This document shows, one piece after another, positions 39,037 to 55,574 of a stretch of DNA of 64,000 nucleotides (the stretch's first letter is position 1; the number at the start of each line of letters is the position of its first letter). Below the pieces are notes generated by a model. It ran no database searches, was not told the DNA's origin, and saw only the letters and a list, made by a program, of their open reading frames with translations. The DNA lies in NCBI RefSeq assembly GCF_000241345.1, contig NZ_BAED01000019.1, positions 62,001-126,000 of the forward strand, in the 5' to 3' direction. Made by a program: the position numbers and the translations under genes. This DNA is from Gordonia amarae NBRC 15530 (GTDB lineage Bacteria > Actinomycetota > Actinomycetes > Mycobacteriales > Mycobacteriaceae).

Positions 39037-39100
39037 CCCGCACACTTCTGACTCGTACCGGCCGCCCGGACCTCAATCGGCCATGGTCGCGGCCGCTGTG

Positions 39101-40132
39101 ATGGACACTTCAATGGTGAGTATCACGACAGTAGCGGCCGTCGACTATCACACCGGCGGTGAGCCTTTCCGGATCGTCGAACAGGTCCCGGATCTGGCCG
39201 GAGGCACTGTTGCCGCGAAAAGGGTTGCAGCCGTAAATGATCCGGATATCGACGGGCTGCGCCGGTTCCTGTGTTTCGAGCCACGCGGCCATGCCGACAT
39301 GTACGGCGGATTCCTTGTGCCGCCCGATGACGACGGCGCGCATCTCGGGGTGCTGTTCTGGCACAAGGACGGTTTCTCCACCGCGTGCGGGCACGGCACG
39401 ATCGCCCTGGGTGCGTGGGCCGTGGGCACCGGGCGGGTGCCCGCCGACCCGACCGGTGTGACCGATGTGGTCATCGACGTGCCGTCCGGCCGGGTCACCG
39501 CGCGTGTGCTCTCAGCGGGCCGCCGGGTCACGGGGGTGGAATTCGTGAATGTCCCCACCTATCTGCTGCACCGCGATATCGCGGTGCCCACCTCGCGTGG
39601 GACCGTCGGTGTGGACGTGACTTACGGAGGTGCGATCTACGCGCAGGTCGATGCCCGCGGCATAGGGCTGGAGGTGAATCCGGAGTCGCTGACCGAACTG
39701 ATCGCCCTCGGGCGCGAAGTGAAGCGGGTCCTGCACGATTCGCCGTACGCCGAGCACCCCTCCGACGACAGACTCAGCGGCATCTACGGCACCATCTTCT
39801 ACACCGACGACGGGTCCGACGCCGACGGCAACCCGTGCCAGCGCAACGTGACGATCTTCGCCGACGGCCAGGTGGACCGCTCCCCCTGCGGATCCGGCAC
39901 CAGCGCCCGGGTGGCGACGCTCGCGGCGCGGGGCGTACTCGGTGACGGCCACAGGCTTGTGAACCGCTCCATCGTCGATTCGGTGTTTCATGCCCGGGTC
40001 GGCGCGAGGTGCGAGGCCGACGGCCATGACGCGGTGATCCCCGTGGTGCTGGGCACCGCCTACCGCACCGGCGAGCACCGGTTCACCGCCGATCCCGACG
40101 ACGACCTGGTGCCCGGCTTCGTGCTGCGCTGA
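39101..40132 (+). CDS. Proline racemase / hydroxyproline epimerase family enzyme (copy 1)
   Basis: A 343-residue member of the proline racemase superfamily. Both catalytic cysteines are present: TACGHGTIALG and DRSPCGSGTSAR, so it should epimerise or racemise rather than dehydrate (3-hydroxyproline dehydratases have Thr/Ser at one site). Start could be ATG 39101, ATG 39113 or GTG 39116; no clear ribosome site decides. Convergent with the Rieske oxygenase gene 4 bp away. A second, divergent copy lies in the hydroxyproline operon at 51066. Confidence 0.87.
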   Translation: MDTSMVSITTVAAVDYHTGGEPFRIVEQVPDLAGGTVAAKRVAAVNDPDIDGLRRFLCFEPRGHADMYGGFLVPPDDDGAHLGVLFWHKDGFSTACGHGTIALGAWAVGTGRVPADPTGVTDVVIDVPSGRVTARVLSAGRRVTGVEFVNVPTYLLHRDIAVPTSRGTVGVDVTYGGAIYAQVDARGIGLEVNPESLTELIALGREVKRVLHDSPYAEHPSDDRLSGIYGTIFYTDDGSDADGNPCQRNVTIFADGQVDRSPCGSGTSARVATLAARGVLGDGHRLVNRSIVDSVFHARVGARCEADGHDAVIPVVLGTAYRTGEHRFTADPDDDLVPGFVLR

Positions 40133-40136
40133 CCTC

Positions 40137-41828
40137 TCAGCCGGTGGACAGCCGGCGTTCGCGTGGTTGTCGTTGTTCGACACGCAGATCGCTGAGCGGT
40201 GTGGAGCAGCACAGCAGGATCTTGCCGTTGTCGATGTCGCGCTGCCGGATTCCGCCGTTGTGGTTCATGTCGACCTGGCCGTCGACGAGTACCGACTTGC
40301 AGGTACCGCAGTGACCTTCGCGGCATTGTGAGGCCACCTCGATGCCCGCGCCGAGGGCCGCATCGAGGATCGTCTGATCCGCTGCGCAGACGACTGTCTC
40401 GCCGGTCCGGGTGAACTCGATCGTGTACGTGTCGGTGGCGGTGTCCCGGGTTCTGGGTTCCGGGTGTGCCGTGCCAGGCGGCGGGTTATCGGTATCCGAC
40501 TGCGGTGGCTGTGGTGTGGTCCGGGTGCCGGCGACGGTGGAACCGTTGAGCTGGGCGTCGAGCCGTCCCACGTACCAGGAGACGAACGCCTCGACGTCGT
40601 CCTCGACGAGTGAGTACGGCCCGGGCACGTACCCCGGGTCGCCGACGCCGTTCTGGGTGCGTTCGACGAGGTCGCAGTCCTCGGCGTTGGTGTGCTCCCA
40701 CACGTGGGTGAGTTCGTCGAGGCGGTAGTCGATGCCTTCGTGGGCGTCCCGGTGCACGAGCCAGGTGGTGCGGACCATCGTCCGCGCGGGTGAGACGGGC
40801 AGGACGGAGAACACGACGGCGCAGTCGCTGAGCAGGTGGAACCACGCGTTCGGTTGCCAGTGCATGTGGAAGTCGCCGAACGCGCGGTCGCGGATCTGCC
40901 CGAGCAGTCTGGTGGACACCGGTGCGCCCTCGGCGCCGTACGAGGCGCCGAGGCCCTTCAGCGGCATGTGGTCGACCATGAATCCGGTGACCCGCGTGTC
41001 GAGTTCACGGATATGTGCGGACGGGAACCCAATGGCGTCACGGGCGGCGGACAGTGCCGAGGTCGCCGCCTGATACTGCTCGAACACCGGCCGCTGCCGG
41101 GCGGGAATCTTGCTCTCGTCGAACCGGTGAAACGGGAAGTACGCCCCGAGCAGCGCCGGATGGTTGGCTTCGCAATGGTGGCACTCGCGGTTGTTCTCCA
41201 TCGTGAGTTTCCAGTTGCCCTCCTCGATGACGACGCTCTGCTGCGCGACCTTGGTGTTCGCCAGATCGAACGGCAGCAGGTACGGCTCGACCGTCGCGGC
41301 CACCTCATCGATGTCGCTCGGGGCCTCGGATGACAGGCAGATGAAGATCAGGCCGGCGATGGTGCGCACATGGACGGTGCGTAACCCGAAGCGGGCCTTG
41401 TCGAACGTCGCCGGCTGGTTCTCGGCGAACCGCAGGGTGCCGTCGGTGCCGTAGGTCCATTGGTGGTAGGGGCACACGATGTTGCCGACGGCACCGCAGC
41501 GGTCGTCGAGCAGCCGGGCACCACGGTGCCGGCACACGTTGCGGAAGGCCCGGACCTGACCGTCGTCGTCGCGGACGACGATGACCGATTCGGTTCCGAC
41601 CTCGACGGTCACGTAGTCACCGTCGTCGGGTAGTTCGGCCTCGGCGGCGACGAAGATCCAATGGGTGCCGAAGATGAGTGACACGTCGAGGTCGAAGATA
41701 TCGGGGCTGGTGTAGAACGGCGCCTCCAGCGTGTGCCCGGGAACTCGCCGTGCCGTCAGCGCGGCGGCGTCCACATGGTGGGGTTCATTGCTGCCGCCGA
41801 GGGCGACGGCGTCGGTGAGTGTGGTCAT
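40137..41828 (-). CDS. Rieske non-heme iron oxygenase fused to a plant-type [2Fe-2S] ferredoxin
   Basis: A 563-residue fusion. Residues 1-425 are a GbcA/stachydrine-demethylase-type oxygenase: Rieske ligands C99-R-H101 and C119-x2-H122, mononuclear iron ligands H218 and H223 in the NNREC..CEANHP motif, and a later Asp. Residues 430-465 are a Pro/Thr-rich linker, and 466-563 form a ferredoxin with C502-x4-C507-x2-C510 and C540. Usual GbcA proteins are about 410-430 residues, with the ferredoxin carried on a separate reductase. It is expected to demethylate a quaternary ammonium such as a proline betaine. AAGGAG precedes ATG 41828. Confidence 0.9.
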   Translation of the reverse strand: MTTLTDAVALGGSNEPHHVDAAALTARRVPGHTLEAPFYTSPDIFDLDVSLIFGTHWIFVAAEAELPDDGDYVTVEVGTESVIVVRDDDGQVRAFRNVCRHRGARLLDDRCGAVGNIVCPYHQWTYGTDGTLRFAENQPATFDKARFGLRTVHVRTIAGLIFICLSSEAPSDIDEVAATVEPYLLPFDLANTKVAQQSVVIEEGNWKLTMENNRECHHCEANHPALLGAYFPFHRFDESKIPARQRPVFEQYQAATSALSAARDAIGFPSAHIRELDTRVTGFMVDHMPLKGLGASYGAEGAPVSTRLLGQIRDRAFGDFHMHWQPNAWFHLLSDCAVVFSVLPVSPARTMVRTTWLVHRDAHEGIDYRLDELTHVWEHTNAEDCDLVERTQNGVGDPGYVPGPYSLVEDDVEAFVSWYVGRLDAQLNGSTVAGTRTTPQPPQSDTDNPPPGTAHPEPRTRDTATDTYTIEFTRTGETVVCAADQTILDAALGAGIEVASQCREGHCGTCKSVLVDGQVDMNHNGGIRQRDIDNGKILLCCSTPLSDLRVEQRQPRERRLSTG

Positions 41829-41900
41829 ACCGGCGGCTCCTTCTCTGTTCTGTCCCGGAAATGGAGGTGGTGTCGTGATCGATGTTCGGTGGTGAGTGGA

Positions 41901-41936
41901 CGGATGGCCGGCGGCGACACCGGCGCCGGCCATCCG
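41901..41936 (-). terminator. Terminator-like hairpin after the MFS gene
   Basis: CGGATGGCCGGC and GCCGGCCATCCG form a 12-bp perfect stem around a 12-nt GC-rich loop, starting 22 bp after the MFS stop on the minus strand. It may attenuate read-through into the Rieske gene. Confidence 0.6.
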
Positions 41937-41958
41937 TATCAGCACGCGAGGTGCCAAC

Positions 41959-43347
41959 TCAGTGGGAGAACGTCGCCGCGGTCTCCGACAGGCTCTTGCC
42001 CTTGGTTTCCGGTGCCAGCGCCTGCGACAGCAGGGTGCCCGCCAGGATGATGATCGCAGCGATCGTCAGGCTCGTCGCCATCCCGAGGTTGTCGATCGAC
42101 CACGGCAGCAGGAAGGTACCGAGGCCGGCGCCGATGCGGCTGCAGGCCGAGGCGAAGCCGGTGCCGATGCCACGGACCTCGGTCGGGAACACCTCGCCCG
42201 GATATACCGACGTCAGCGTGTTCACGCCGGAATTGATGAACGAGAACGCCAGCAGCATCGTCAGCATCAGCCAGCCGGGGCCATCCCACCACGCCAGGAT
42301 CAGGATCAGCACGAGCGTCACCCACTGGGGCGGGATCGTCAGGGCGCGGCGGCCGAGTTTGTCGAGCAGCGCGGCCGTCGTGGCGACACCGAGGGTTGCC
42401 GCGACGGTCATGCCGACGGCACCGAACGCACTGTCCTCACCGAAACCGAAGTCTTCGAGCACGACCACCGCGAAGGTGGCGATCGCGAAGTACGGTGTGG
42501 AGGCGCAGAACCAGAACCCGGAGGCGAACACGGTGGCGCGGATGTTCTCCTTGTTGAACAGGTCGGCGAATCGTCCTTCCTTGCCGCTGGTTTCCTCCTT
42601 GTGCTTGGCCTCCAGCTCGATCTCCATCGCCTCGACCACGTTCATGTAGCGCTTGGCGATGGACTGGCCTTCGGCGATGCGGCCCTTCTGCAGGAGCCAG
42701 CGCGGTGATTCGGGCAGTCCGAGCCGGGCGATGAACAGGATCACCGCGATGACCGTCGAGGAGCCGAGGATGATGCGCCAGTTGATACCCGCGTTGTCCA
42801 TGAGGGTGCCGATGAAGAACGCGATCATGAAGCCGAAGTACCAGGCGAGCACCGTCGACCCCAGGAGCCGGCCTCGGAGTCTGGCCGGTGCGAACTCGCT
42901 CAGCAGTGGCCAGCCGATGGCGTATTCGCCGCCGATCGCGACACCCATGAGCAACCGGATAACGAAAAGCTGAATCCAGTCGTCGACGAAGAACTGGCCG
43001 ATGGCGATGAAGAACTGCAGGAACGAGGCGAGGACGAACAGCCCCATGTCCATCAGGAACATCGGTTTGCGGCCCCACTTGTCGGTGGCCCAACCACAGA
43101 TGGGGGCACCGATGAAGATGCCGAACAGCGGTCCCGCGGCGATCAGGCCGAGTTCGAGGGAGTTGATGTTCAGGCTGTCCTCGATGGTCGAGGTGACCGG
43201 GCCGATGATGCCGAGGATGTAGCCGTCGAGGATCATGCCGCCGACCATCACCGCGACGAGGCGGAACATGAATTTGCGTTTGAACGACTCTGAGGTGACA
43301 TCGACTGCGGGCGTGTGGGCTTCGGGTGTTTCGTCTAGCGTGGACAT
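41959..43347 (-). CDS. MFS transporter, sugar-porter-like (betaine uptake candidate)
   Basis: A 462-residue inner-membrane transporter with about 12 hydrophobic segments. GWATDKWGRKPMF between helices 2 and 3 and the PESPRWLLQKGR loop after helix 6 mark a sugar-porter-like MFS. The central loop is charged (EAMEIELEAKHKEETSGKEG). From its place between a Rieske demethylase and a flavin demethylase it probably imports a betaine such as stachydrine or hydroxyproline betaine. ATG with AGGAGC upstream. Confidence 0.87.
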   Translation of the reverse strand: MSTLDETPEAHTPAVDVTSESFKRKFMFRLVAVMVGGMILDGYILGIIGPVTSTIEDSLNINSLELGLIAAGPLFGIFIGAPICGWATDKWGRKPMFLMDMGLFVLASFLQFFIAIGQFFVDDWIQLFVIRLLMGVAIGGEYAIGWPLLSEFAPARLRGRLLGSTVLAWYFGFMIAFFIGTLMDNAGINWRIILGSSTVIAVILFIARLGLPESPRWLLQKGRIAEGQSIAKRYMNVVEAMEIELEAKHKEETSGKEGRFADLFNKENIRATVFASGFWFCASTPYFAIATFAVVVLEDFGFGEDSAFGAVGMTVAATLGVATTAALLDKLGRRALTIPPQWVTLVLILILAWWDGPGWLMLTMLLAFSFINSGVNTLTSVYPGEVFPTEVRGIGTGFASACSRIGAGLGTFLLPWSIDNLGMATSLTIAAIIILAGTLLSQALAPETKGKSLSETAATFSH

Positions 43348-43486
43348 GGCACGTGCTCCTGGGGAATCGGTGTGCTGCACATGGGTTCTCCTAGAAAAAT
43401 GTGGATGTGGGATCGAGCGATCGGTCCAACCCCCGCGGTGGGCCGAGTGAACTTCTGGTGGCGCTGATTTCGAGGTGACGCGGACT

Positions 43487-45538
43487 TCAGATGGCGCTGC
43501 ACAATCGCAGCGCGTCGAGCACGGCCGCGGGGATGTCGCGGCCGGCGACGGCATCGCCGATGCGGTACAGGGCGAAGCTGCCGTCGGGGTTTGCGGTGGC
43601 CGGTTGTGGCCGCCTGGCGAGCAGTTCGCGGATGGCGATCTGCCCGAGATTTGTGGACTGTGGGCGTAGTGCCTCGTACAGTTCGGGGTCCGGTTGGGTG
43701 CCGTGTTCGATGACGACGGCGTCGCAGACCTTTTCGCGGACCGCGATGGAGCCGTCGGTCTTCAGCCTGGCGATGAGTCTGCCGTCGCGGCGTTCGATGC
43801 CGACGAGTCGCTGCAGGACGGTGGTGCGTACGTCGTGTTCGGCCATCAGCGCGAAGTATCCGGTGGCCGGGGACCCTCCGACATCGGGGGCGACGCTGCG
43901 TTCGGGTGTGGCGTATTCGATGGATCTAGCCGTGCGGGTGAGGCTTTCGATCGCATCGAGGGCCTGGTGCCCGCCATGGTCGTCGTAGACCAGGACGTCG
44001 CCGGTGAGCTTGCGGGCACCGGTGAGCACATCGCAGGTGTCGATGGCCATGTCGTCGCCGGTGACGCCGATCCGTGGGTTCGGGGTGCCGCCGGTCGCGA
44101 GGATCACCACGTCGGCGGCGGAGATCAGGTCGTGGTCGGCGTCGGGGTCGATGTAGCGGTTGCGGTGTAGCTCGACGCCGAGCCGCGCACATTCGGCGAC
44201 CCGCCAGTCGATGATTCCGATGAGGTCGCGACGCCGTTCGCTGAGGGCCGCGAGCGCGACCTGCCCGCCGAAGCGGTCGGCGGCCTCGTACAGGGCGACG
44301 CGGTGCCCGCGTTCGGCGAGGACGCGGGCGGCCTCCAGTCCGGCGGGCCCGCCGCCGACCACCACGCAGTGTTTGCGGGCGTCGCTGTCGGCCGGTGGAA
44401 TACGCTGTGGTACTTCATCTTCGCGGCCGGTGGCCGGATTGTGGATGCAGTTGGCGCGGCCGCTGGAGTAGATACCGTCGATGCACAGGCTCGCGCCGAC
44501 GCAGGGCCGGATCTGATCGGCGCGTCCGGTGCGGGTCTTGACCGGCAGATCCGGGTCGGCCATCAGCGCGCGCACCATACCCACCATGTCGAGCAGGCCC
44601 TCGGCGATGGCGTAGCGGGCGGTGGCCACGTCGTTGATGCGGCCCGCGTGCATGATCGGGGTGGCGAGCTGCTTTTTCACCGTGCCGGCGAACTCCAGGT
44701 GCGGGGCCGACGGGGTGAACATCGGGGGGATCATCTTGGTCAGCGCGGCGTCGGTGTCGACGTTGCCGCGGGTGATGGACAGGAAGTCGACGCCTGCCGC
44801 CTCGAATCCCTTGCACATCAGCAGTCCTTCGTCGGCGACGATGCCGGAGCCGTCCTCGCGCAACTCGTCCAGCGACAGGCGCACGCCGACGATGAAATCG
44901 GCGCCGACCGCCTCACGCACCGCCGCGAAGACCTCGAGCGGGAACCGCATGCGGTTCTCCAGCGTGCCGCCGTACTCGTCGTCGCGGTGGTTGTGGAACG
45001 GCGAGAGGAACTCGTCGAGCAGATGACTGCTGTAGGCGGACAGCTCGATGCCGTCGAGGCCGGCGGCCTGGCACCGTTGTGCGGTGTCGGCGAACTCCCG
45101 GGCGATGCGCCGCAGGTCGGTGATTTCGGCCGTGCGGGAGAACGACCGGTGCGCCGGTTCGCGGGTTCCCGACGCCGACACCGCCGGAACCCATGCGCCG
45201 GTCCGGCCGAGGACGCGGTGCCCCATGTGGGTCAGTTGGGTCATCACCGCCGCACCCTGCTCGTGGACGTCGTCGGCAAGTGCCCGCAGGTAGGGCACCG
45301 CCTCGTCCCGGTACAGTTCCAGATTCCCGAACGGGGGTGCGCAGTCCGGACTGACCAGGGCGCTGCCGCCGATCATCGTCAGGGCGACTCCCCCACGGGC
45401 CTTCTCGCGGTGGTAGGCGCGATAGCGGTCCTTGGGCAGGCCGTCGTCGCTGTAGGACGGTTCGTGCGAGGTGCTCACGAGACGGTTGCGCAGGGTCAGG
45501 TTCTTGATGGTGAACGGGGTGAAGAGCGGGTCTGGCAT
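43487..45538 (-). CDS. NADH:flavin oxidoreductase, N-methylproline-demethylase-like
   Basis: A 683-residue protein of the trimethylamine-dehydrogenase/dienoyl-CoA-reductase family: an FMN TIM barrel (residues 1-340), iron-sulfur segment, and a C-terminal FAD/NAD domain (VVVGGGPAGLEAARVLAERGH). In the iron-sulfur segment the Cys pattern is C346-x2-Ala349-x2-C352-x11-C364, so one of the four expected [4Fe-4S] ligands is Ala. Relatives act on N-methylproline or similar amines in betaine breakdown, which fits the Rieske and MFS neighbours. ATG with GGAGGAGAACGTC upstream. Confidence 0.87.
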   Translation of the reverse strand: MPDPLFTPFTIKNLTLRNRLVSTSHEPSYSDDGLPKDRYRAYHREKARGGVALTMIGGSALVSPDCAPPFGNLELYRDEAVPYLRALADDVHEQGAAVMTQLTHMGHRVLGRTGAWVPAVSASGTREPAHRSFSRTAEITDLRRIAREFADTAQRCQAAGLDGIELSAYSSHLLDEFLSPFHNHRDDEYGGTLENRMRFPLEVFAAVREAVGADFIVGVRLSLDELREDGSGIVADEGLLMCKGFEAAGVDFLSITRGNVDTDAALTKMIPPMFTPSAPHLEFAGTVKKQLATPIMHAGRINDVATARYAIAEGLLDMVGMVRALMADPDLPVKTRTGRADQIRPCVGASLCIDGIYSSGRANCIHNPATGREDEVPQRIPPADSDARKHCVVVGGGPAGLEAARVLAERGHRVALYEAADRFGGQVALAALSERRRDLIGIIDWRVAECARLGVELHRNRYIDPDADHDLISAADVVILATGGTPNPRIGVTGDDMAIDTCDVLTGARKLTGDVLVYDDHGGHQALDAIESLTRTARSIEYATPERSVAPDVGGSPATGYFALMAEHDVRTTVLQRLVGIERRDGRLIARLKTDGSIAVREKVCDAVVIEHGTQPDPELYEALRPQSTNLGQIAIRELLARRPQPATANPDGSFALYRIGDAVAGRDIPAAVLDALRLCSAI

Positions 45539-45694
45539 GACGTTCTCCTCCGCGAATGGCGTCGGCGGGACGGCCGGTCAACTGCGCGCGTACTTTCGGG
45601 GCTGCACTGCGATGTGGCTGAGTTAAACCATGAGGCCTGTACTCGTCCCCGAACCCCTTTACACTCGTCTGCGATTCGGGTGAGTCAAAAAAAG

Positions 45695-45721
45695 ATGAAC
45701 GACGAAGTGACGGCCACATGA
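45695..45721 (+). CDS. Tiny upstream reading frame overlapping the fusion regulator start
   Basis: ATG AAC GAC GAA ... TGA encodes eight residues and its stop overlaps the regulator's ATG as ATGA. Its first 11 bases (ATGAACGACGA) are repeated exactly at the regulator start 23 bp on. It might couple translation, or be a duplicated start. Weak ribosome site (A-run). Confidence 0.3.
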   Translation: MNDEVTAT

Positions 45722-47406
45722 ACGACGAGAGATCGGCACTCCGGCAAGCGGATCGTGAGGTCCTGCTGCGTACCGCACGGTCACGGACCGCGCCGCACGG
45801 TCTGGTGACGCGGGCGCAGATCGTGCTCGACTGCGCCGACAGCGGTGTTGCCGAGGCCGCCCGGCGGGCCGGTGTCAGCACCGCGACGGCGTCGAAATGG
45901 GTGCGCAGGTTCGCCGAGGCCGGGATCGACGGGCTCCGGGACACGCCCCGGTCGGGGCGGCCGTCGGCGGGAGCGGCGGACATCGAGCGCATCCTGCGCT
46001 ACGCCCTGGTCAGTCCGCCCGCCGGATCGCCGCGCTGGTCGACACGGCTGATCGCGCAGGACATCGGCATCAGCCAGGCGACTGTCAGCCGAGTGCGGCG
46101 GCGCTTCTATCCGCAACCTGAACCCGACAGCCGGTTCGTGCCCGACGCGTCGGCGTTGGTCCTGATCTACGTCGATGTCGACGACAGCGGTTGTGCCGTC
46201 GGCTTTCACCGCACCGACCGGGCCTCGTCGGAGGTCGCGGCGGGGGCCGCTCTGCTCGATACCGTCGAGACCATCGCATGCGCGTCGCTGCTGCGGCGCC
46301 CACACGACGGCTATCCGTCCGCCGAGGGGTCAGGTGCCAGGGAGTCCGGTGCTGCCGGCGCCGACCGCGGGACACCGCGGGCCGTGGCACTGTTGCGGCG
46401 GGCGGCATCCCGGCTGCCGGCCACCCCACCGGTGACATTGGTGATCGATGTTCCGCTCGATGACGCGGCGCGGCGGTGGCTGGCGCAGCATCCCGGGTTC
46501 ACGGTGCGGACGTTGACGCCCACCGAGTGGCTGATGGCGGTGCACCGCATCGCCGACTCCGTCGACAGCCGTCAGCTCACCGAGTTGCGGGCCGTCGCGG
46601 ACGAGATCCGGAGAGCGTATGGGCGTTCGGGCACCAGGTTCACCTGGTCGCGCACCGATGTTCCCGACCGCGCGCGGGACACGACCGCGGTGGTGCGTGA
46701 CCCGGTCGACGATGATCTCGCCCAGGTGGTGAGCGCGCTGTGCACGGCGATCACCGAGGGCGAACTCGGCGCGGGTTCGGAGGTCATGGTGCGGACCCTC
46801 GCCCGGCGGACGGCGATGTCCTCGGGACGGGTGGCGGAAGCGTTGGCGCGGCTGGCAGCCGAGGCGTTACTCGACCAGAGCGGCGGAAAGTACCTGGTAC
46901 CGTTGCCCGGTGCTCGTGATGTGATCGAAACCTACACCGCCCGTGGGCTTCTGGGAACCGCGATCGCGCGCAGGCTGGCCTCCTCCCCCGATCCGCTGCC
47001 GGCGTCGATCGATGACTTCCTGGAGCGGCTCGAGGTGTGTGACCGGATGGGGCTGGCGCACGAGGCGCACATGATCGATCTCGATTTCCAGAACGAGCTT
47101 GCCAAGGCTGCGGAGATGCCGCGTATCGGCTGGATGTTTGTGCAGTTGTCGTTGCAGTTGCGGCTGTTTGTCACCATTATCGGCCTCGACTACAAATACC
47201 CGACGCGGGAGATTGTCGACGATGGGCTTCTGCTCGTATCACAATGCCGGGCAAAGGATCCCGAGGCCGCGGTGGCCGCTTGGCGGGGCAAGGTCGACAA
47301 CTGTGCCCGCTACATGCTGCAGTATCTGGAGGTGATGACCGGCCGCCGTCAGGATCTGCCGGGGCGTTCGGTCAGGGCGCGGCCCAGCGGCCGCGGGTCT
47401 GACTGA
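45718..47406 (+). CDS. Domesticated IS630 transposase fused to a GntR/FCD regulator
   Basis: A 562-residue chimera. Residues 20-130 are the paired helix-turn-helix of IS630/Tc1-type transposases (AARRAGVSTATASKWVRRF, GLRDTPRSGRP, ATVSRVRRRF). Residues 145-312 follow the transposase catalytic core in order: ALVLIYVDVD, LVIDVPLDDAARRWLAQHPGF, LTPTEWLMAVHRIA, FTWSRTD, matching IS630 CVDE-, LVLDN-ATHK-WLxxHPRF, FTPTSxSWLNxVERFF and FxWTKTAD. The third acid (Glu of VER) is His, so it is catalytically dead. Residues 330-395 form a GntR winged helix and 400-545 an all-alpha FCD ligand domain. Divergent from the betaine demethylation genes, it is probably their regulator. Confidence 0.85.
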   Translation: MNDERSALRQADREVLLRTARSRTAPHGLVTRAQIVLDCADSGVAEAARRAGVSTATASKWVRRFAEAGIDGLRDTPRSGRPSAGAADIERILRYALVSPPAGSPRWSTRLIAQDIGISQATVSRVRRRFYPQPEPDSRFVPDASALVLIYVDVDDSGCAVGFHRTDRASSEVAAGAALLDTVETIACASLLRRPHDGYPSAEGSGARESGAAGADRGTPRAVALLRRAASRLPATPPVTLVIDVPLDDAARRWLAQHPGFTVRTLTPTEWLMAVHRIADSVDSRQLTELRAVADEIRRAYGRSGTRFTWSRTDVPDRARDTTAVVRDPVDDDLAQVVSALCTAITEGELGAGSEVMVRTLARRTAMSSGRVAEALARLAAEALLDQSGGKYLVPLPGARDVIETYTARGLLGTAIARRLASSPDPLPASIDDFLERLEVCDRMGLAHEAHMIDLDFQNELAKAAEMPRIGWMFVQLSLQLRLFVTIIGLDYKYPTREIVDDGLLLVSQCRAKDPEAAVAAWRGKVDNCARYMLQYLEVMTGRRQDLPGRSVRARPSGRGSD

Positions 47407-48031
47407 TATGGGTGCGCATCAGATCCTCCACCAGCTCCGGGTTGCGGGCGGCGATGGCGTCGACGATCGCGTGATGTTCGCGGGCTGATTCGGCGAGCAG
47501 GCCGCGTTCGGACAGGGACGCCAGACCGTACAGGCGGGTGTTGGCGCGTAGATCGGACACGATGGCGGTGGCCCGGGTATTGCCGGTATAGCCGAGGATT
47601 TTCAGGTGAAAGGCCCGGTCGGCCTCGGTGTAGGCGATCAGATCACCGGCTGCGGCACCGTCGACGATCGCGTCTGCCAGCGCGCGCAGACCCGGCAGGT
47701 CGGCCTCCGGGATGAGCAGAGCCGCGCGCCCGGTGAGGGCGGGTTCGATCAGCATCCGCAGGTCGGTGATGTTGTCAAGGTCGGATTCGTCCATCACGGT
47801 GACCCGGTAACCCTTGTTGGGCACGGTGGTCACCAGATTCTCCCGGACGAGGTCGAGCATCGCCTCGCGGACCGGGGTGGCCGAGATGCCGAAGCGTTCA
47901 CCGAGGGCCGGTGCCGAGTACACCTCGCCGGGTTCGAGTTCACCGGCGATGATCGCCGCACGCAGGGCGCGGGTCACCTGCTCGCGCAGACTCACCTTGT
48001 CGAACTGACGCAGGTTGGTGATCGTCAACAC
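47372..48031 (-). CDS. GntR/FCD-family regulator of the hydroxyproline operon
   Basis: A 219-residue regulator: winged helix SLREQVTRALRAAIIAGELEPG ... SATPVREAMLDLVRENLV, then an FCD domain with DLRMLIEP and metal/ligand His residues (RAFHLKILGY, EHHAIVDAI). GTG at 48031 overlaps the stop of the upstream dehydrogenase subunit by 7 bp and follows AAGGGGG. Its 3' end overlaps the 3' end of the convergent fusion regulator by 35 bp. Last gene of the eight-gene operon. Confidence 0.9.
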   Translation of the reverse strand: MLTITNLRQFDKVSLREQVTRALRAAIIAGELEPGEVYSAPALGERFGISATPVREAMLDLVRENLVTTVPNKGYRVTVMDESDLDNITDLRMLIEPALTGRAALLIPEADLPGLRALADAIVDGAAAGDLIAYTEADRAFHLKILGYTGNTRATAIVSDLRANTRLYGLASLSERGLLAESAREHHAIVDAIAARNPELVEDLMRTHISQTRGRWAAP

Positions 48032-49593
48032 GTGCCCCCTTCCGTCGCCGTGGTCCCGGTCGCGGCACCGTCCGGTCGATCGTATCGGACCTGGTCGGCG
48101 CTACCGGGTTCGTGCGTGTCACGGGCCGTCGCGGCATCGTCGCCGGCGAGTTCACCGAGGGTGACGGGTGCGGCGATGACCCGTTTGGCGATCGGTGCGA
48201 GCTCGTCGGCACCGGGGCGGCCGCAGGGCGAGGCGATGGCCGCGGTGGCGAAGCCGCACACCCGTCCCTGGCACCACCCCATGCCGGGCCGGGCGATGAG
48301 TTTGGCGGTGCGGGCGTCGGCGGCGCCCAGGTCGTCCCTGGCATTCTGCAACGATCCGAACGTCGTTTCCTCGCACCGGCACACGAGTGTGTCCGGGCGC
48401 AGCCAGTCCTGCCAGTGTTCCGGGACGGGGTGGGCGGTGTGCATGGCCGCGGCGAACCGTCTGCCGCGGGTGATACGCGAAGTCAGCGTTCGGACCGTTC
48501 GTGGGTGGGGTTCACGGTGGCCGCCGTCGACGGCGGCGGTCGTACCGGCGAGTTCACCCTCGGCCACCGCGAGTGCGGCACCGCCGACACCGGTGGCCTC
48601 ACCGGCCACATACACACCGGGTACGGTCGACCGCTGCGCCGCGTCGACGACCGCGACCAGCGAGCCGTCGACATCGACACGCGTGGCGGCCCCGGCGGCG
48701 GTGATCAATTCCAGCGACGGGGTGAAGCCCCACCCGAACGCCACCAGATCGACGTCCACCGTCTGTGCGCGCTCATCGATGCGCCCGTCACGGCCCAGCC
48801 GCGCCAGCGTCGCCGACGTCACCCGATCGTCCCCGTGTACCGCGGTCACCACGGTGCACGTCCGGTACGGAATCCGGTGCCGCGCCAGATGATAGGCGTA
48901 CTCGGCGCCCTCGATCGCCTTCGCCGGCATGGCGAGCGCGCCGAGCGGATTGCGGGCCCAGCCACGGATCACCGCCGCCGCCTCGCACACCGCGACCACC
49001 TCGGCACCGGCCTGGGCGAGGCCGGTGGCCACCGGCAGCAGGAACGGTCCGGTACCCGCGACGAGCGCGCGGGCACCGGCGACGGTGCGGTGTGCTTTGA
49101 GCAGCGCCTGTACCCCACCGGCGGCCATCACCCCGGGCAGGTCCCAGCCCGGTACCGGCAGTTGGCGGTCGTAGCCTCCGGTGCACAGGATCAGCCTTCT
49201 CGCGCGGACGGCTGCGGGTCCCTGATGTGCTCCGAAGGAGGCGGTCAGGTGCAAGGTGAAGGGTGTCGAGGGATCGGCGGGTGGCTCGAGGAACCACACC
49301 TGCCGGGAGAACAGTGCCGAGATCCGGCCGGTGCCGACGTGCATGCGGAGTGTGTCACGCAAACCGGTGTAGGTGCGCCACAGGTGGTGGCCCCGATTCT
49401 CGTCCGTCGGTCGTGTGCGTTCGTCGGGGTGACGCCAGAACTGACCGCCGGTCTGGGCGGCCGAATCGATCAGGGTGACCGTCAGTCCGGCGTCGGCGGC
49501 GGCGACCGTGGCGGCGAGCCCGGCGGGTCCGGCACCCACGACGGCGACATCGGCGACAGGTATTCCGCTCGCCGCGGAGTCCGGCTCACGCAC
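48025..49593 (-). CDS. FAD/NAD-binding subunit of D-hydroxyproline dehydrogenase (HcnB/LhpF-type)
   Basis: A 522-residue flavoprotein subunit with VVGAGPAGLAATVAAADAG near the N terminus, a second dinucleotide fold (ALVAGTGPFLLPVATGLA) and, near the C terminus, a BFD-like Cys cluster VCRCEE ... GMGWCQGRVC that holds an Fe-S centre. Such proteins join a DAO-like subunit and a small ferredoxin-like subunit in amine/hydroxyproline dehydrogenases. GTG at 49593 is preferred because GGGGAG lies 8 bases upstream; GTG at 49617 is an alternative. Overlaps the small-subunit stop. Confidence 0.85.
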   Translation of the reverse strand: MREPDSAASGIPVADVAVVGAGPAGLAATVAAADAGLTVTLIDSAAQTGGQFWRHPDERTRPTDENRGHHLWRTYTGLRDTLRMHVGTGRISALFSRQVWFLEPPADPSTPFTLHLTASFGAHQGPAAVRARRLILCTGGYDRQLPVPGWDLPGVMAAGGVQALLKAHRTVAGARALVAGTGPFLLPVATGLAQAGAEVVAVCEAAAVIRGWARNPLGALAMPAKAIEGAEYAYHLARHRIPYRTCTVVTAVHGDDRVTSATLARLGRDGRIDERAQTVDVDLVAFGWGFTPSLELITAAGAATRVDVDGSLVAVVDAAQRSTVPGVYVAGEATGVGGAALAVAEGELAGTTAAVDGGHREPHPRTVRTLTSRITRGRRFAAAMHTAHPVPEHWQDWLRPDTLVCRCEETTFGSLQNARDDLGAADARTAKLIARPGMGWCQGRVCGFATAAIASPCGRPGADELAPIAKRVIAAPVTLGELAGDDAATARDTHEPGSADQVRYDRPDGAATGTTATEGGTC

Positions 49594-49897
49594 GGTTATC
49601 GACTCCCCTGACGCCACCGCTTTCGCAGATCATGGCCCGCGCGGCGGGAACCATGCAGGCCCGCTGGTTGGGGCGCCCGTCCACGGTCAGCAGACAGTCG
49701 AAGCAGATACCGATACCGCAGAACAGGCCGCGGGGTGCTCCGCCGACGCGGGTACTGCGCCAGGACGTGATGCCGGAGTCGGTCAGGGCGGCTCCGACGC
49801 TCTGACCGGGACGGGCGGTGACGGGGCGTCCGTCGAATTCGAACGTGAGGGCGCCGGTGGTGATGCCTTCTGGGGTGTTGTTGCCGGGTCCGGTCAC
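49586..49897 (-). CDS. [2Fe-2S] ferredoxin-like small subunit of D-hydroxyproline dehydrogenase
   Basis: A 103-residue protein with GLFCGIGICFDC ... QRAC: cysteines spaced C-x4-C-x2-C-x11-C for a [2Fe-2S] cluster, as in HcnA-type small subunits. GTG at 49897, with AGGAG upstream, overlaps the preceding stop as GTGA. It lies between the two flavoprotein subunits and should shuttle electrons between them. Confidence 0.88.
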   Translation of the reverse strand: MTGPGNNTPEGITTGALTFEFDGRPVTARPGQSVGAALTDSGITSWRSTRVGGAPRGLFCGIGICFDCLLTVDGRPNQRACMVPAARAMICESGGVRGVDNRA

Positions 49898-51069
49898 GTG
49901 GGGACTCCTGTGGGGGCGGGCGCAAGGGTGGGACGGTCGGGGGCGAACGGGGTCAGCGGCAGCTCGGTGGGCTGCCCGGTCATGGCCTGCACCAGTAGTT
50001 TTGCCGTGCCCACCGACAGGCCGATGCCGGCGCCCTCGTGGCCGGTGGCGTGCCACAGGCCGGGGGTGCGCGGATCCTCGCCGATCACCGGCAGGTGGTC
50101 GGGGCAGTACGGCCGGAACCCGAGATAGGTGCGCATCACCGACACCTGCCGTAGCGACGGATACAGGCGCAGTGCCTTGGCGGCGATCTCCCGGATCGCG
50201 GGCAGGGACGGTGTCTTGTCGAAGCCGACGCGTTCGCGGGACGAGCCGATGAGCACCGTGCCGCCCTCGGTGCCCTCGATGACGGTCGAGGTTTGCAGTC
50301 CGGCGTCGCCGCTTTGGGTGGCCGCGACGTACTCACCGGCATACACCTTGTGAAAGACGGTGGGCGGCAATGGTTCCGTGACGAGGACGAAACCGCGGCG
50401 CGGGAGTACCGGAAGATGGTTGCCCGCGAGGGCGGCGACTTCCCCCGCCCACGCACCGGCGCAGTTCACCACGATGGGGGCGCTGATTTCTCCCGAACTC
50501 GTCCGCACCCCGGTCACCCGGTCGCCGGCGGTGACGAATCCGGTGACCGGGGTGTCGGTGTGGACCGTCGCCCCGCGGCTGCGCGCCATGCGCAGCAGGT
50601 GGGCGGCCAGCAGGATCGGCTGGACCTGGCAGTCCTGCGGGTAGAACGCCGCCGAGGCGATGTCCCGGGTCAGGTGTGGTTCGAGGGTCGGTACCTCGTC
50701 CAATGGCACGTCCTGCACGATCACCCCCGCCGCACGCTGCCGTTCGGCGAGGTCGGTCAGGCCGTCGCGTCCTTCGGTGGTGGCCGCCACCACGAGCCCG
50801 CCCTTGAAGTCGAACTCCCAGAGCGCGCGGAAGTCGACGAGTTCGTCGGCCCACACGCGGTGCGAGTACAGCGCCAGATCCAGTTCGGGTCCGGGTTCCT
50901 TGTCGGAGACGAGCAGGTTGCCCTCACAGGAGCTCGAACTGCCCGAGACGATGGCGCCGCGCTCGACGACGGTCACCGACAGCCCGGCGCCCGTGGCGTA
51001 CCAGGCGACGGCGGCGCCGACCGCCCCGGCACCGATCACCACCACATCGCAAGCGGAATGCCGGGTCAC
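49894..51069 (-). CDS. DAO-like FAD subunit of D-hydroxyproline dehydrogenase
   Basis: A 391-residue D-amino-acid-oxidase-fold protein. VVVIGAGAVGAAVAWYATGAG binds FAD at the N terminus; GFRPYCPDHLPVIGE and HEGAGIGLSVGTAKLL are the conserved C-terminal FAD/substrate segments. Within the operon it should oxidise cis-4-hydroxy-D-proline to pyrroline-4-hydroxy-2-carboxylate. GTG start overlaps the epimerase stop (GTGA). Confidence 0.9.
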   Translation of the reverse strand: MTRHSACDVVVIGAGAVGAAVAWYATGAGLSVTVVERGAIVSGSSSSCEGNLLVSDKEPGPELDLALYSHRVWADELVDFRALWEFDFKGGLVVAATTEGRDGLTDLAERQRAAGVIVQDVPLDEVPTLEPHLTRDIASAAFYPQDCQVQPILLAAHLLRMARSRGATVHTDTPVTGFVTAGDRVTGVRTSSGEISAPIVVNCAGAWAGEVAALAGNHLPVLPRRGFVLVTEPLPPTVFHKVYAGEYVAATQSGDAGLQTSTVIEGTEGGTVLIGSSRERVGFDKTPSLPAIREIAAKALRLYPSLRQVSVMRTYLGFRPYCPDHLPVIGEDPRTPGLWHATGHEGAGIGLSVGTAKLLVQAMTGQPTELPLTPFAPDRPTLAPAPTGVPT

Positions 51070-52067
51070 AACTCGAAACCGGCGGGAAAGGGGTCGGTGG
51101 GGTCGAGCATGTACTGGGCGGTTCCGGTCAACCAGGCCCGGCCGGTGATGGTGGGGATCACCGCTTCGATGCCGGCCACGGTGGTGGTGTCGACGAGGCG
51201 TCCGGTGAACCGGCTGCCGATGTAGGACTCGTTGACGAAGTCGGTGTGCAACGGCAGTTCACCGCGGGCGTGCAACTGCGCCATGCGGGCGCTGGTGCCG
51301 GTGCCGCACGGTGACCGGTCGAACCAGCCGGGATGGATCGCCATCGCGTGCCGCGAATGCCGGGCATCCGACCCGGGGGCCTTGAGGTACACGTGATGGC
51401 AGCCGCCGATGTCGGGGCGTTCGGGGTGGACCGGACGATTCTGGCCGTTGATCGCGTCCATGATCGTCAGACCGGCATCGAGCAACTGCTGCTTGGCCTT
51501 TCGTTCGAACGGCAGGCCGAGCGAGTCGAGGTCGACGATGGCGTAGAAGTTGCCGCCGAAGGCCATGTCGTAGGTGACCTGCCCGAACCCGGGTACCTCC
51601 ACCGCCAGGTCGAGGCCGACGCTGAACGAGGGCACATTGCGGATGGTCACCGACTCCGCGTGGCCGTCGCTCACCGCGACGTCGGCGATCACCAGACCGG
51701 CCGGGGTGTCCAGGCGCAGCGTGGTGACCGGTTCGGTGACCGGCACCATCCCCGTCTCCACCAGCACCGTGGCGGTGCCGATGGTGCCGTGCCCGCACAT
51801 CGGCAGCAGCCCGGACACCTCGATGAACAGCACCCCGAAATCGGCGTCGGACCGGGTGGGTGGTTGCAGGATGGACCCGCTCATCGACGCGTGGCCGCGT
51901 GGTTCGCGCATCAGCAGCTTGCGCAGGCCATCGTTGTTGTCGATGAACCACTGCCGCCGCTCGGCCATGGTGGTGCCCGGGAACACCCCGACACCGCCGG
52001 TGATCACGCGGGTCGGCATGCCCTCGGTGTGTGAGTCGACGGCGTGGTAGACGTGCGTGGTCCTCAA
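51066..52067 (-). CDS. 4-hydroxyproline 2-epimerase (proline racemase family, copy 2)
   Basis: A 333-residue enzyme with both catalytic cysteines, LPMCGHGTIGT and DRSPCGTGTSARM, and the DSHTEGMPTRVI N-terminal block typical of 4-hydroxyproline epimerases. It would convert trans-4-hydroxy-L-proline to the cis-D form for the dehydrogenase. The start is a TTG at 52067, overlapping the dehydrogenase stop as TTGA, with no good ribosome site, so translation is probably coupled. Confidence 0.92.
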   Translation of the reverse strand: MRTTHVYHAVDSHTEGMPTRVITGGVGVFPGTTMAERRQWFIDNNDGLRKLLMREPRGHASMSGSILQPPTRSDADFGVLFIEVSGLLPMCGHGTIGTATVLVETGMVPVTEPVTTLRLDTPAGLVIADVAVSDGHAESVTIRNVPSFSVGLDLAVEVPGFGQVTYDMAFGGNFYAIVDLDSLGLPFERKAKQQLLDAGLTIMDAINGQNRPVHPERPDIGGCHHVYLKAPGSDARHSRHAMAIHPGWFDRSPCGTGTSARMAQLHARGELPLHTDFVNESYIGSRFTGRLVDTTTVAGIEAVIPTITGRAWLTGTAQYMLDPTDPFPAGFEL

Positions 52068-53524
52068 CGGAGCGTATCCGGGTCGAGGGTGCCGTCCACC
52101 CGGCGCGGGGCCGGTATCGACTGGTCGTCGCGCAGCTCACCGGGCAGCAGGTGCTGCGGGAAGCCCTGCCAGGCGACGGCCCGGACGAAGCGGCTCAGGG
52201 CCGCGGTGCCCACCGAGGTGGTGCCGGGGGTGGTGCTGGCCGGGTAGGGGCCGCCGTGCTGCTGGGCGTAGGTCACCGATACCCCGGTCGGCCACTGGTT
52301 CCACAGGATGCGGCCCGCTTTGCGGGTCAGGACGGTGGCCAGCGGACCGACGATCGCGTCGTCGGGTTCGGCGGCGAGCGTGGCGGTGAGTTGGCCGTGC
52401 AATTTGCCGGCGATCGTCAGCAGGTCGGCGGGATCGGTGTAGGTCACCACCAGGGCCGTGGGGCCGAAGCATTCGGTGACCAGCTCGTCGAAGCCGGCGA
52501 TCAGTGTGGTGCTGTCGGTGGTGAGCAGGGCGGGAGTCGGGGGATCGACCTCCGGGCCGCCGCCCGCGAGCAGCTCCACTCCCGCATGGCCGGCGAGACT
52601 GTCGCGTACCTTGCTGTGCGCCTGGGCGATTCCGCTGTGCAGGAGCAGGTGCCCGGCCGGTATCGCCGCCTCGCGGAGCAGCTCCGGGATGGCCGAGTCC
52701 GCGGGGACGAGGAGGATGCCCGGCTTGGTGCAGAACTGCCCCTGCCCGAGCGTGAACGATCCGAGGAAACCGTCGGCGATCTCCTGTGCCCGGGAGTCCG
52801 CCGCGGCCGCGGTGACGAACACCGGGTTGACGCTGCCGAGTTCACCGTAGAACGGGATCGGCTCGGGACGGGCCTGGGCGATGTTGAAAAGTGCCCGGCC
52901 GCCGGGGATTCCGCCGGTAAACGCGCCGGCCTTGATGCCGGGGTGCGCGAGGACGGCCCGGCTGTCGGCTTCGGAACGGACCAGGGCGAACAGTCCCGCG
53001 GGTGCCCCGGCGGCGTCGAGGGCGTCGATGACGACGGCGCCCGTCGCCTCCGACAGCTCGGGATGGCCGGGGTGGGTCTTGTAGATCACCGGGCACCCGG
53101 CCGCGAGGGCGGAGGCGGTGTCGCCGCCCGCTGTGCTGAACGCGAACGGGAAGTTGGAGGCGCCGAACACGAGCACCGGTCCGAGCGGAACCGAGGTGCG
53201 GCGCAGATCGGGGCGGGGTGCGCCCATGGGCCACTGCGGGTCGGCGTGGTCGATCCGCACATCGAGGTGCTCCCCCGCCGCCGCGGCATCGGCGAGCAGC
53301 CGGATCTGGAAGGTGGTGCGGGTCAGTTCGCTGGTCAGCCGTGCCTGCGGCAGGTGCGACTCGTCCAGCGCGATGGGGATCAGCCGGTCGGCGGCGGCGT
53401 CGAGGGCGTCGGCGACGGCGTGCAGGATCCGCCGACGTTCGGCGGGTTCGGTTGCCGCCCACCGGTCGCCTGCCGCGACGGTGGCGGACACCAGGTCATC
53501 GATGTGTTGCTGCGGTGCGGTCAT
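52064..53524 (-). CDS. 2-oxoglutarate semialdehyde (2,5-dioxovalerate) dehydrogenase
   Basis: A 486-residue aldehyde dehydrogenase. Catalytic Cys in GQFCTKPG and the general-base Glu in ELGSVNPVF are intact; FGASNFPFAFSTAGGDTASALAAGCPV is the cofactor segment typical of alpha-ketoglutarate semialdehyde dehydrogenases, which produce 2-oxoglutarate as the last step of hydroxyproline breakdown. ATG with AAGGAGAAGACATG context. Upstream gap of 69 bp. Confidence 0.92.
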   Translation of the reverse strand: MTAPQQHIDDLVSATVAAGDRWAATEPAERRRILHAVADALDAAADRLIPIALDESHLPQARLTSELTRTTFQIRLLADAAAAGEHLDVRIDHADPQWPMGAPRPDLRRTSVPLGPVLVFGASNFPFAFSTAGGDTASALAAGCPVIYKTHPGHPELSEATGAVVIDALDAAGAPAGLFALVRSEADSRAVLAHPGIKAGAFTGGIPGGRALFNIAQARPEPIPFYGELGSVNPVFVTAAAADSRAQEIADGFLGSFTLGQGQFCTKPGILLVPADSAIPELLREAAIPAGHLLLHSGIAQAHSKVRDSLAGHAGVELLAGGGPEVDPPTPALLTTDSTTLIAGFDELVTECFGPTALVVTYTDPADLLTIAGKLHGQLTATLAAEPDDAIVGPLATVLTRKAGRILWNQWPTGVSVTYAQQHGGPYPASTTPGTTSVGTAALSRFVRAVAWQGFPQHLLPGELRDDQSIPAPRRVDGTLDPDTLR

Positions 53525-53593
53525 GTCTTCTCCTTGGTCGATCCCGGGCGGGTGCGGGGCCGGGCGCGCGTGAACTTGGCCGGGCGATACAGA

Positions 53594-54556
53594 TTATGTT
53601 CCGCCGGTGGGTTTTTGGTGCCGGTCGACGATGGTGGTCGCCAGTACCAGGTCTTCCCATGACATTCCCACACCCGAGTACACGGCGGGGGTGTCCGGCC
53701 GCCGCCGGAACCGGCCGGTGACCAGATCGGCGAGATTGGCCGGTGGCTGTCTCGCCCAGTCGTCGGCGGTGCGGGCCCGCAGCAGATTGCCGCCTTCTCG
53801 CATCGCTGACGCCCGCGCCTCGACGACGACGTCGGCGCGGCGCACCAGTTCCGGTGGGAGCTCGGCGTTCTGGGGCCCGTGGGCACCCACAGCGGCGACA
53901 ACGGTGTGCGGCCCGATGAGCGCGGCGTCGACAACCGGTGTCGGCGAGCTGGTGGCGGTCAGGACGACCGCGGCACCGGGGACGTCGGCGGGTGTACCCG
54001 CCCGCACTGCTAGCCCGGGTCTGGTTGTCTCACCGATGAATTCGTTGATGGCCCCGGGGAGGCGGCCGATCACCGCGGCGTCGATGGGGCCGAGTACCGA
54101 ACGCATGGTCTGCAAGTGGCGCCGTGCCTGTGGACCGGTGCCGTAGACCACCATGGGCAACGGGCCGGGTGGTCGGGGCGGTCCTGCGGCCAGGAGCTCA
54201 CGGATGGCCAGGACGGTGACGGCAGGGGTCCGGATCAGGGTCAGTTCGGGACCGTCGAGCAGTGCTCGCGGGGCAAGGTCGTCGCTGCCGACGAGCACGT
54301 AGACGCCCTGGATCTTCGGTTTTCCGCGGGCCGGGTTGTCCGGCGCGACGGTGAGTACCTTGACGCCCGCAGCGGCGCGGCCGCGGGCCGGCATGAGCAG
54401 GAACTCTCCCCCGGGCGCCGGTGAGAACAGCCGTGGGTCGTCGAGTTCGGGATCCACCGATCCCGAGACCAGCGCGTCACAGATCGCATCGACGGCCTCC
54501 GTCGGTGTGATCAGTGCACCGATGTCGGCGGCGGACAGCACCTCGACGGTTCCCAT
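53594..54556 (-). CDS. Ornithine cyclodeaminase/mu-crystallin family, pyrroline-2-carboxylate reductase-like
   Basis: A 320-residue NAD(P)-dependent enzyme of the ornithine cyclodeaminase/mu-crystallin family. GGEFLLMPARG and the nucleotide loop VVYGTGPQARRHLQTM are visible. In hydroxyproline clusters such proteins reduce pyrroline-2-carboxylate to L-proline. It starts 3 bp after the DHDPS-like stop. Confidence 0.85.
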   Translation of the reverse strand: MGTVEVLSAADIGALITPTEAVDAICDALVSGSVDPELDDPRLFSPAPGGEFLLMPARGRAAAGVKVLTVAPDNPARGKPKIQGVYVLVGSDDLAPRALLDGPELTLIRTPAVTVLAIRELLAAGPPRPPGPLPMVVYGTGPQARRHLQTMRSVLGPIDAAVIGRLPGAINEFIGETTRPGLAVRAGTPADVPGAAVVLTATSSPTPVVDAALIGPHTVVAAVGAHGPQNAELPPELVRRADVVVEARASAMREGGNLLRARTADDWARQPPANLADLVTGRFRRRPDTPAVYSGVGMSWEDLVLATTIVDRHQKPTGGT

Positions 54557-54559
54557 GGC

Positions 54560-55459: not shown

Positions 55460-55552
55460 GGGTGATCTCCTCGGGGCGTGTGGTGGTGGGAGGATTGAGA
55501 GGTCTGTTATGTGACATTGCACCATGCTGGTGCTGGTCTTTTTGGGAGGTTG

Positions 55553-55574
55553 TGGCACTACGATAGCAGTGCCA
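55553..55574. promoter_or_regulatory. Inverted repeat upstream of the hydroxyproline operon
   Basis: TGGCACT, eight bases, AGTGCCA: perfect 7-bp arms. The octamer CATTGCAC also occurs twice nearby (55514-55521 and 55573-55580). Likely binding site of the operon's GntR regulator. Confidence 0.5.

Follow-up and report, generated by a model that had tools for sequence, protein, structure and literature searches.

Does a single reading frame in Gordonia amarae NBRC 15530 encode an IS630 transposase that has been built into a GntR/FCD transcription regulator and, if so, how did the hybrid arise and what does it bind? The gene lies in a stretch of 64,000 nucleotides (contig NZ_BAED01000019.1, positions 62,001 to 126,000), hereafter the window, whose coordinates are used throughout. 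A first-pass annotation had described one 562-residue frame carrying an IS630 paired helix-turn-helix (HTH), a transposase core, a GntR winged helix and an FCD domain, beside proline/betaine genes. The frame is indeed one gene of 562 codons with no internal stop, and the central reading is supported by its relatives, by trees and by core profiles. Its parts are as follows.

45718..47406, plus strand: fusion regulator gene, 562 aa, with IS630 paired HTH, predicted eroded IS630 core, GntR winged helix and FCD
45748..46122, plus strand: IS630-type paired HTH, residues ~11-135 (Pfam, NCBIfam, AF2 block means)
46135..46653, plus strand: predicted eroded IS630 DDE core, residues 140-312, with H164, D244 and H276 (core-only profile searches, triad alignment)
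46723..46875, plus strand: GntR winged helix, residues 336-386, degenerate (Pfam, 22.5 bits, cutoff 27)
46927..47286, plus strand: FCD domain, residues 404-523 (Pfam, 38.5 bits, cutoff 24.3)

Four overlapping Pfam models (HTH_32, HTH_29, HTH_23 and HTH_28) fall within residues 31-126, and the NCBIfam IS630 model NF033545 matches residues 32-129 at 57.9 bits, below its whole-protein cutoff of 100. The GntR winged helix is present where it had been proposed, but is itself degenerate in the window member and falls short of the Pfam cutoff. No TnpB family is among the Pfam and NCBIfam matches listed for the window protein. A genuine IS630 transposase matches Pfam DDE_3, which is absent from the matches listed for the window protein and nine scanned fusion proteins; for this reason, residues 140-312, the core, were examined on their own. 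As to mobile-element boundaries, the gene has a degenerate left-end core upstream and a linker without a right end. A chance or assembly chimera was ruled out by near-full-length relatives in other genomes, with 46% (L001, a Pseudonocardia MAG) and 51% (G025) identity.

Searches for other members, as the first-pass annotation had suggested, recovered 20 related loci, distributed over 19 actinobacterial genomes, L001 and G898 being counted once (loci, genomes and families carry our labels L, G and f). At genus level, 3 of 59 genomes carried relatives, and at order level 9 of 397, each of these two counts including the genome of the window; family f16 had them in 6 of 112 genomes. In family f14, 12 of 200 genomes passed, eight with the fusion and four with transposase-length frames only. 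The class search matched 51 of 394 genomes, mostly through frames of transposase length or pieces; loci were taken from the best only, leaving out a 593-aa frame at G563:C11, and G652 and G767 were added. At the strict E of 1e-66, at which a member like L060 would be missed, the phylum sample returned the window's own genome only (1 of 246). Three candidates per genome were scored for the order and the class, and five for the phylum. The fusion was found in none of 600 stretches of viral contigs, and none of 463 matching plasmid records reached 80% coverage. Among the five incomplete loci, the shortened copy of G021 lacks the HTH pair, HTH1 is partly deleted in G899, the second copy in G419 has an in-frame stop, the middle is unrecognisable in G652, and both HTH1 and the middle are unrecognisable in G767.

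Such broken or cut copies, including L042 with its in-frame stop and L004 without an HTH pair, are what would be expected if the gene were a chance fusion heading for pseudogene status. Against this, 15 of the 20 loci, spread over families f1, f14 and f16, have the HTH pair, middle, GntR and FCD intact in one frame, members have neighbours in common, and dN/dS among six f16 copies (79-90% identical) is far under 1 in the HTH pair (0.16), GntR (0.19) and FCD (0.24). We give the decaying by-product almost no credence. In the middle segment the ratio is 0.58; these values describe f16, a subgroup other than the window's, in which the middle was not independently recognised. Within f16, the HTH pair is as constrained as GntR and FCD, and the middle is relaxed.

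An alternative is that no whole transposase was captured, the N-terminus being a generic paired HTH from elsewhere and the middle an unrelated linker, as the missing DDE_3 matches in every fusion scanned would allow. A forward profile was built from the excised cores of four window-clade rows (P0001-P0004) and run against 571 ORFs. Genuine IS630 frames were matched at a best full-sequence E of 1.4e-7, and 40 IS630 frames or pieces, many of them near-copies, lay above the inclusion line; among the other fusions only L038 passed it. A profile from three L038-type cores matched transposases at E 1.8e-27. The reverse profile, made from 17 transposase cores and run against 1492 partly redundant targets, matched L038, L040, L041, L129 and L042 at E 3e-16 to 5e-23 and the window at E 0.0061 (12.8 bits). 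Values were weak for L130 (0.028), L001 (0.24), L003 (1.1) and L034 (4.5), and L004, four f16 copies, L131, L097, L044 and L060 were not matched. The L038 core retains the colinear motifs 'HLLVDG...WLAGHPRFHQHAVAPDGSWIDEV...FSWTK'. Transposase descent of the middle segment thus appears plain in the L038 type and is moderately supported in the window clade. The claim is limited by subgroup because the f16 middle matched transposase cores in neither direction (best 0.16), with L034 alone at 0.0053; in f16 it is the joint tree and the neighbouring parts that suggest a transposase-derived middle.

When the window was aligned with 17 transposases, all of which read D, D, E, the triad positions fell on H164, D244 and H276. 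The core had been described as shortened, with its third acid replaced by His, and the His call stands; the first acid, however, had been placed in 'ALVLIYVDVD', a strand that aligns with the non-catalytic 'GLYLDPP', and at its real position, H164, the acid is gone. By this alignment, the DDE/DDD catalytic triad is lost in the window protein. Among 16 aligned fusions, L042 reads DDE, L038 and L041 read DDD, and 13 are without three acids, the placement being unsure where the core is not recognised by the transposase profile; among the nine core-supported rows (window, L001, L003, L004, L038, L040, L041, L129 and L042), three acids are missing in six. The stretch from first to second acid spans 57-80 residues in all 16 fusions versus 82-83 in transposases. 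A D, D, D triad is used by mariner elements, and L038 and L041 (D-D-D) and L042 (D-D-E) may retain catalysis at the aligned triad. L042 (1831-3438, minus strand), the second copy in G419, has its in-frame stop in FCD, yet is the sole fusion with D, D, E.

Structure prediction had been proposed as a check on the RNase H-like core. From two sequences, AF2 gave a mean pLDDT of 51.7 and a core without order; with ten added IS630 rows, which bias the model towards a transposase shape, the mean was 65.3 and the core only partial. The HTH pair (block means 66-95 across residues 11-130), GntR and FCD were modelled with confidence. Residues 222-304 form helix, strand, helix, strand, helix at low-to-middling confidence, an order that would suit the latter half of an RNase H sheet and is not proof of it, but residues 131-220 have pLDDT below 50 and no order. 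Since AF2 gives the core only partial order, the core claim is carried by sequence homology. Foldseek with the window model returned GntR-type regulators for all of the 50 matches listed, and the model fold of the C-terminal part matches the FCD regulators VanR/McbR. The disorder at residues 131-220, the reverse-profile E of just 0.0061 for the window and the misses for f16, L097, L044, L060 and L004 would all suit an unrelated linker. Set against them are the L038-type scores of 3e-16 to 5e-23, the match of the window-clade profile to transposases at 1.4e-7, and the right-end codons, left end and single tree for all members considered below, and we regard a generic HTH with an unrelated linker as highly improbable.

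Trees of both halves support a single fusion event, which probably took place long ago. In the FCD tree (29 rows, midpoint-drawn), the 15 fusions lie on one side of a branch with support of 100/99 and adjoin four standalone GntR/FCD regulators. In the N-terminal tree (62 rows), a branch with support of 100/100 separates 15 fusions from 47 IS630 rows. The four standalone regulators (L125, L126, L127 and L083, families f49/f53) are the nearest FCD relatives, and the searched pathway genes were not found within the stretches examined around them. The N-terminal tree also holds a lone eroded IS630-like protein (L014, 1147-3015, minus strand) on an end branch of 2.41, adjoined by a LysR-like frame (labelled by eye) at 2050-2928 on the plus strand; it is perhaps a second domestication, without FCD. 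At L063 (1228-2571), a 448-aa IS630 transposase has its HTH unit duplicated, the extra copy standing at the N-terminus.

The manner of fusion may be legible in the linker. In 22 of 50 transposases, a DS tripeptide encoded by the right inverted repeat stands at residue +21 past FxW; 17 of these were reported at +21, and five more were first reported at +10 where an earlier LDS had matched first. The right-end codons read, for example, AATTAAYGACTCAGGACACTAG, the TAG of which is the stop. Right-end-like codons (GACTC) occur in fusions L038 and L041 (NDS at +21), L096 and L042 (KDS at +21) and L040 (NDS at +20), the chance of DS at +20/+21 being p 0.015-0.027 each, and L034 and L098 have GACTCA at +10. 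The right-end matrix scores high only in L098 (13.5), L041 (11.2) and L034 (9.8); scores are low in L038 (-3.3) and in L040, L042 and L096 (1.8-4.1). L004 offers only a doubtful SDS, and no right-end fossil was found in the window linker (score -12.5), L001, L003 or the f16 group. Right-end codons 20-21 residues past FxW, retained by several of the less eroded members, point to read-through of the element's stop into the downstream gene, and the fusion gene probably arose in this way, from an IS630 element reading through into a gntR gene.

Both ends of genuine IS630 elements of this type frequently read CTAGTGTCCTGAGTC(A/G)..., and a corresponding left end was sought upstream of the fusion genes.

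45679..45694, plus strand: IS630 left-end-like core GGTGAGTCAAAAAAAG, presumptive operator/promoter element (significant for the family)

A 16-bp matrix of the inner part of the left end was made from 25 genuine ends and run over the upstream 220 bp of 18 fusion genes. Hand-picking of 25 loci from 62 transposase frames yielded 31 unique ends; the 25 ends with TGAGTC/TGGGTC were kept and six of another type were dropped. In 15 of the 18 fusions, the highest-scoring site begins 46-63 bp ahead of one and the same HTH1 codon (binomial 9e-14, for an interval picked post hoc, after the sites had been seen). L039, L097 and L060 miss this position; in L060, where HTH1 is gone, the gene's own start served as anchor. 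The end-to-HTH1 distance in genuine elements is 67-73 bp, measurable in four of six tried. The site reached p<0.05 against shuffles in 12 of 18 fusions and against natural windows of the same loci in 12 of 14, and ranked first among ~32-36 thousand positions in six loci. Fisher's combined values were 2e-12 (13 'non-redundant' rows of our choosing), 1.4e-13 (all 18) and 3e-14 (14 loci against natural windows), which are not strict probabilities because the rows are homologous. With the full 23-bp end matrix, p<0.05 was reached in only 5 of 18, the outer CTAGTGTC part being lost. The family thus appears to keep a trace of the IS630 left end upstream of most members. In the window, a check for IS630-like ends at 45540-45717 had been suggested; a degenerate candidate, GGTGAGTCAAAAAAAG, does lie there in the family position, but it is weak and not significant in the window alone (p 0.18 against shuffles, p 0.089 against natural windows, rank 63 of 127,970).

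The left-end core sits in the presumed -35/-10 spacer of the regulator, the boxes being judged by eye. This placement would also suit a protein in which only GntR/FCD works, the IS630 part being passive ballast and TGAGTCA an inherited promoter spacer, not an operator; the relaxed f16 middle (dN/dS 0.58), the partial loss of HTH1 in L098, its complete loss in L060 and the loss of the HTH pair in L004 are in keeping with it. Passive ballast is hard to square with an HTH segment constrained like the GntR helix in the six f16 copies (0.16 vs 0.19), and the degenerate part in the window clade is the GntR helix (22.5, 22.4, 16.8 and 18.5 bits); moreover, divergence of this order would seldom leave promoter spacers conserved. 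We judge it unlikely and favor an HTH pair that still binds DNA. As for the GntR helix elsewhere, two f16 rows score 38.4 and 46.5 bits, and four L034/L038-type rows 55-66 bits.

A second motif, the palindrome TTGTNNACAA, occurs with 0-1 mismatch in 6 of 18 upstream regions (L034, L098, L038, L040, L041 and L096), each time 43-44 bp upstream of the left-end core. In five of these rows (without L040), the two sites score 4.5 and 4.2 of 5 for conservation, against 2.9 of 5 for the DNA that separates them. The palindrome was picked by eye from six sequences, which makes its shuffle p of 0.001-0.064 post hoc. It was not found upstream in the window and its clade, and is absent in f16 members, although the GntR helix lies above the cut-off in the two f16 rows scanned.

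The FCD site is altered as well. Three metal-site His positions read Q458, G and K525 in the window, K525 lying just outside the Pfam match, and D-Q-x-K is found in all 15 aligned fusion loci (16 rows, one a duplicate). The four nearest standalone regulators have a half-lost D-Q-H-H, and of the 10 remaining distinct FCD rows, 8 have D-H-H-H, which we take to be the metal site.

What the regulator might sense and control is suggested by its neighbours, which are named by nearest models; none of the scanned window neighbours reaches its NCBIfam cut-off.

38978..40132, plus strand: proline racemase family protein (nearest model)
40137..41957, minus strand: Rieske oxygenase carrying a fused Fer2 domain; the closest model is glycine betaine monooxygenase GbcA (394 bits against a cutoff of 670)
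41959..43476, minus strand: MFS transporter (nearest model)
43487..45538, minus strand: OYE/FMN-flavoprotein, divergent target candidate with a putative N-demethylase role (nearest model, synteny)
47372..48031, minus strand: second, ordinary GntR/FCD regulator, tail-to-tail with the fusion gene
48025..55558, minus strand: block of seven genes presumed to serve hydroxyproline catabolism (names from nearest models), listed next
48025-49617, minus strand: SoxA/HcnA-like (nearest model; the HcnA label is our assumption)
49586-50056, minus strand: small protein without a model match, presumably 2Fe-2S-like
49894-51069, minus strand: FAD oxidase (nearest model)
51066-52067, minus strand: 4-hydroxyproline epimerase-like (nearest model)
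52064-53524, minus strand: aldehyde dehydrogenase (nearest model)
53594-54556, minus strand: ornithine cyclodeaminase-like (nearest model)
54560-55558, minus strand: DHDPS-like (nearest model)

The second GntR gene runs tail-to-tail into the fusion gene and shares 35 bp with it (47372-47406). Synteny was compared over 16 fusion loci, the window and 15 others of 12.7-18 kb each. An OYE gene lies near the fusion in 9 of 16; in two, which are the most distant members, a PutA-type proline dehydrogenase is divergent; an AGCS amino-acid carrier, which the L042 stretch contains, lies within the stretch in three; MFS stands alone in one; and none of the searched genes was found beside the fusion at one, L074. 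A BCCT transporter accompanies a Rieske gene at two f16 loci. Proline or hydroxyproline betaine is demethylated by Rieske and OYE enzymes, after which hydroxyproline is broken down. In G025, an S-(hydroxymethyl)mycothiol dehydrogenase (686 bits, cutoff 513) lies between the regulator and OYE, which fits formaldehyde from N-demethylation. From this gene context, we infer a betaine/proline-type ligand for FCD. A Phage_integrase-family gene (55615-56664, plus strand) directly adjoins the hydroxyproline genes. The hydroxyproline block may have been mobile in the past.

We consider it probable that the gene is a read-through fusion kept as a ligand-sensing regulator of proline/betaine/hydroxyproline catabolism, with the left end of the element as its operator. 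A single IS630 element would have lain just upstream of a gntR/FCD gene in the distant past, and loss of its stop, the TAG of the right end, would have let the transposase read through into the regulator. Hosts would then have retained the hybrid, which as a one-component regulator would control the breakdown of proline, betaine and hydroxyproline, as the neighbouring genes suggest. Going by its conservation, the paired HTH, built for transposon ends, would still bind the left end retained in the hybrid's promoter, and because the left-end core lies in the presumed -35/-10 spacer, this binding would make the gene autoregulated. In the L034 and L038 types, the GntR helix may contact a further site at the divergent promoter, 43-44 bp off, if the post hoc motif is its target; in the window clade, DNA would be read mainly by the HTH pair. 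The catalytic core is eroding, with the triad gone in the window, and FCD would sense a proline-type ligand through its remodelled D-Q-x-K site, upon which the complex is released or rearranged. A more elaborate version, which we hold only tentatively and think doubtful, is a ligand-controlled frozen transposon paired-end complex, in which two kinds of DNA-binding head hold the IS630 end of the hybrid's promoter and either the GntR palindrome TTGTNNACAA, 43-44 bp off at the divergent promoter, or an intragenic fossil right end, and a proline-type ligand opens the bridge.

If the read-through account holds, its route can be read in the DNA: an element beside a gene, a stop lost, an end kept as likely operator, a core eroding and a DNA-binding part held. 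Members can be ranked in steps, from L038, where the core is nearly complete, down to L060, where no core is recognisable, and the joint origin of a regulator and of the site it binds becomes testable.

Several known systems resemble parts of this protein. It shares with IS630/Tc1-mariner transposases (actinobacterial IS630, CTAGTGTCCTGAGTC ends) the paired HTH, the FxW tail, the left-end motif upstream, a recognisable core in the window clade and L038 type and, in some fusions, right-end codons; it differs in the H-D-H triad of the window, the shortened stretch between first and second acid, the lack of element boundaries and the attached GntR/FCD. VanR/McbR-type GntR/FCD regulators (6z74, 4p9f and TM0439 3fms) have the same C-terminal winged helix and FCD by sequence and model fold, whereas the fusions have D-Q-x-K at the FCD site and, in the window clade, a degenerate winged helix; we know of none of that kind with an IS630 part before the winged helix. 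TldR derives from TnpB, which is no DDE transposase; it is targeted by guide RNA and is not known to have a ligand sensor. TldRs are described as RNA-guided transcription factors (PMC13418256). The window fusion is likewise a transposon-derived bacterial protein turned regulator, but appears to be of DDE-type descent and is joined to a putative metabolite sensor.

DNA transposases captured as transcription factors are well known in animals and plants. Vertebrate host-transposase fusion transcription factors arose in several captures by splicing, and join the DNA-binding part of a DNA transposase to a host effector domain. The present fusions also join a transposase DNA-binding part to a host domain; unlike the vertebrate ones, they are bacterial, probably stem from one capture via stop-codon read-through, carry a metabolite sensor and keep a transposon end upstream. 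In the accessible text of the open-licence literature, we found no case of a bacterial DDE-type transposase joined to a metabolite sensor. What appears to be new here is a bacterial DDE-type transposase/sensor fusion that has kept its own transposon end.
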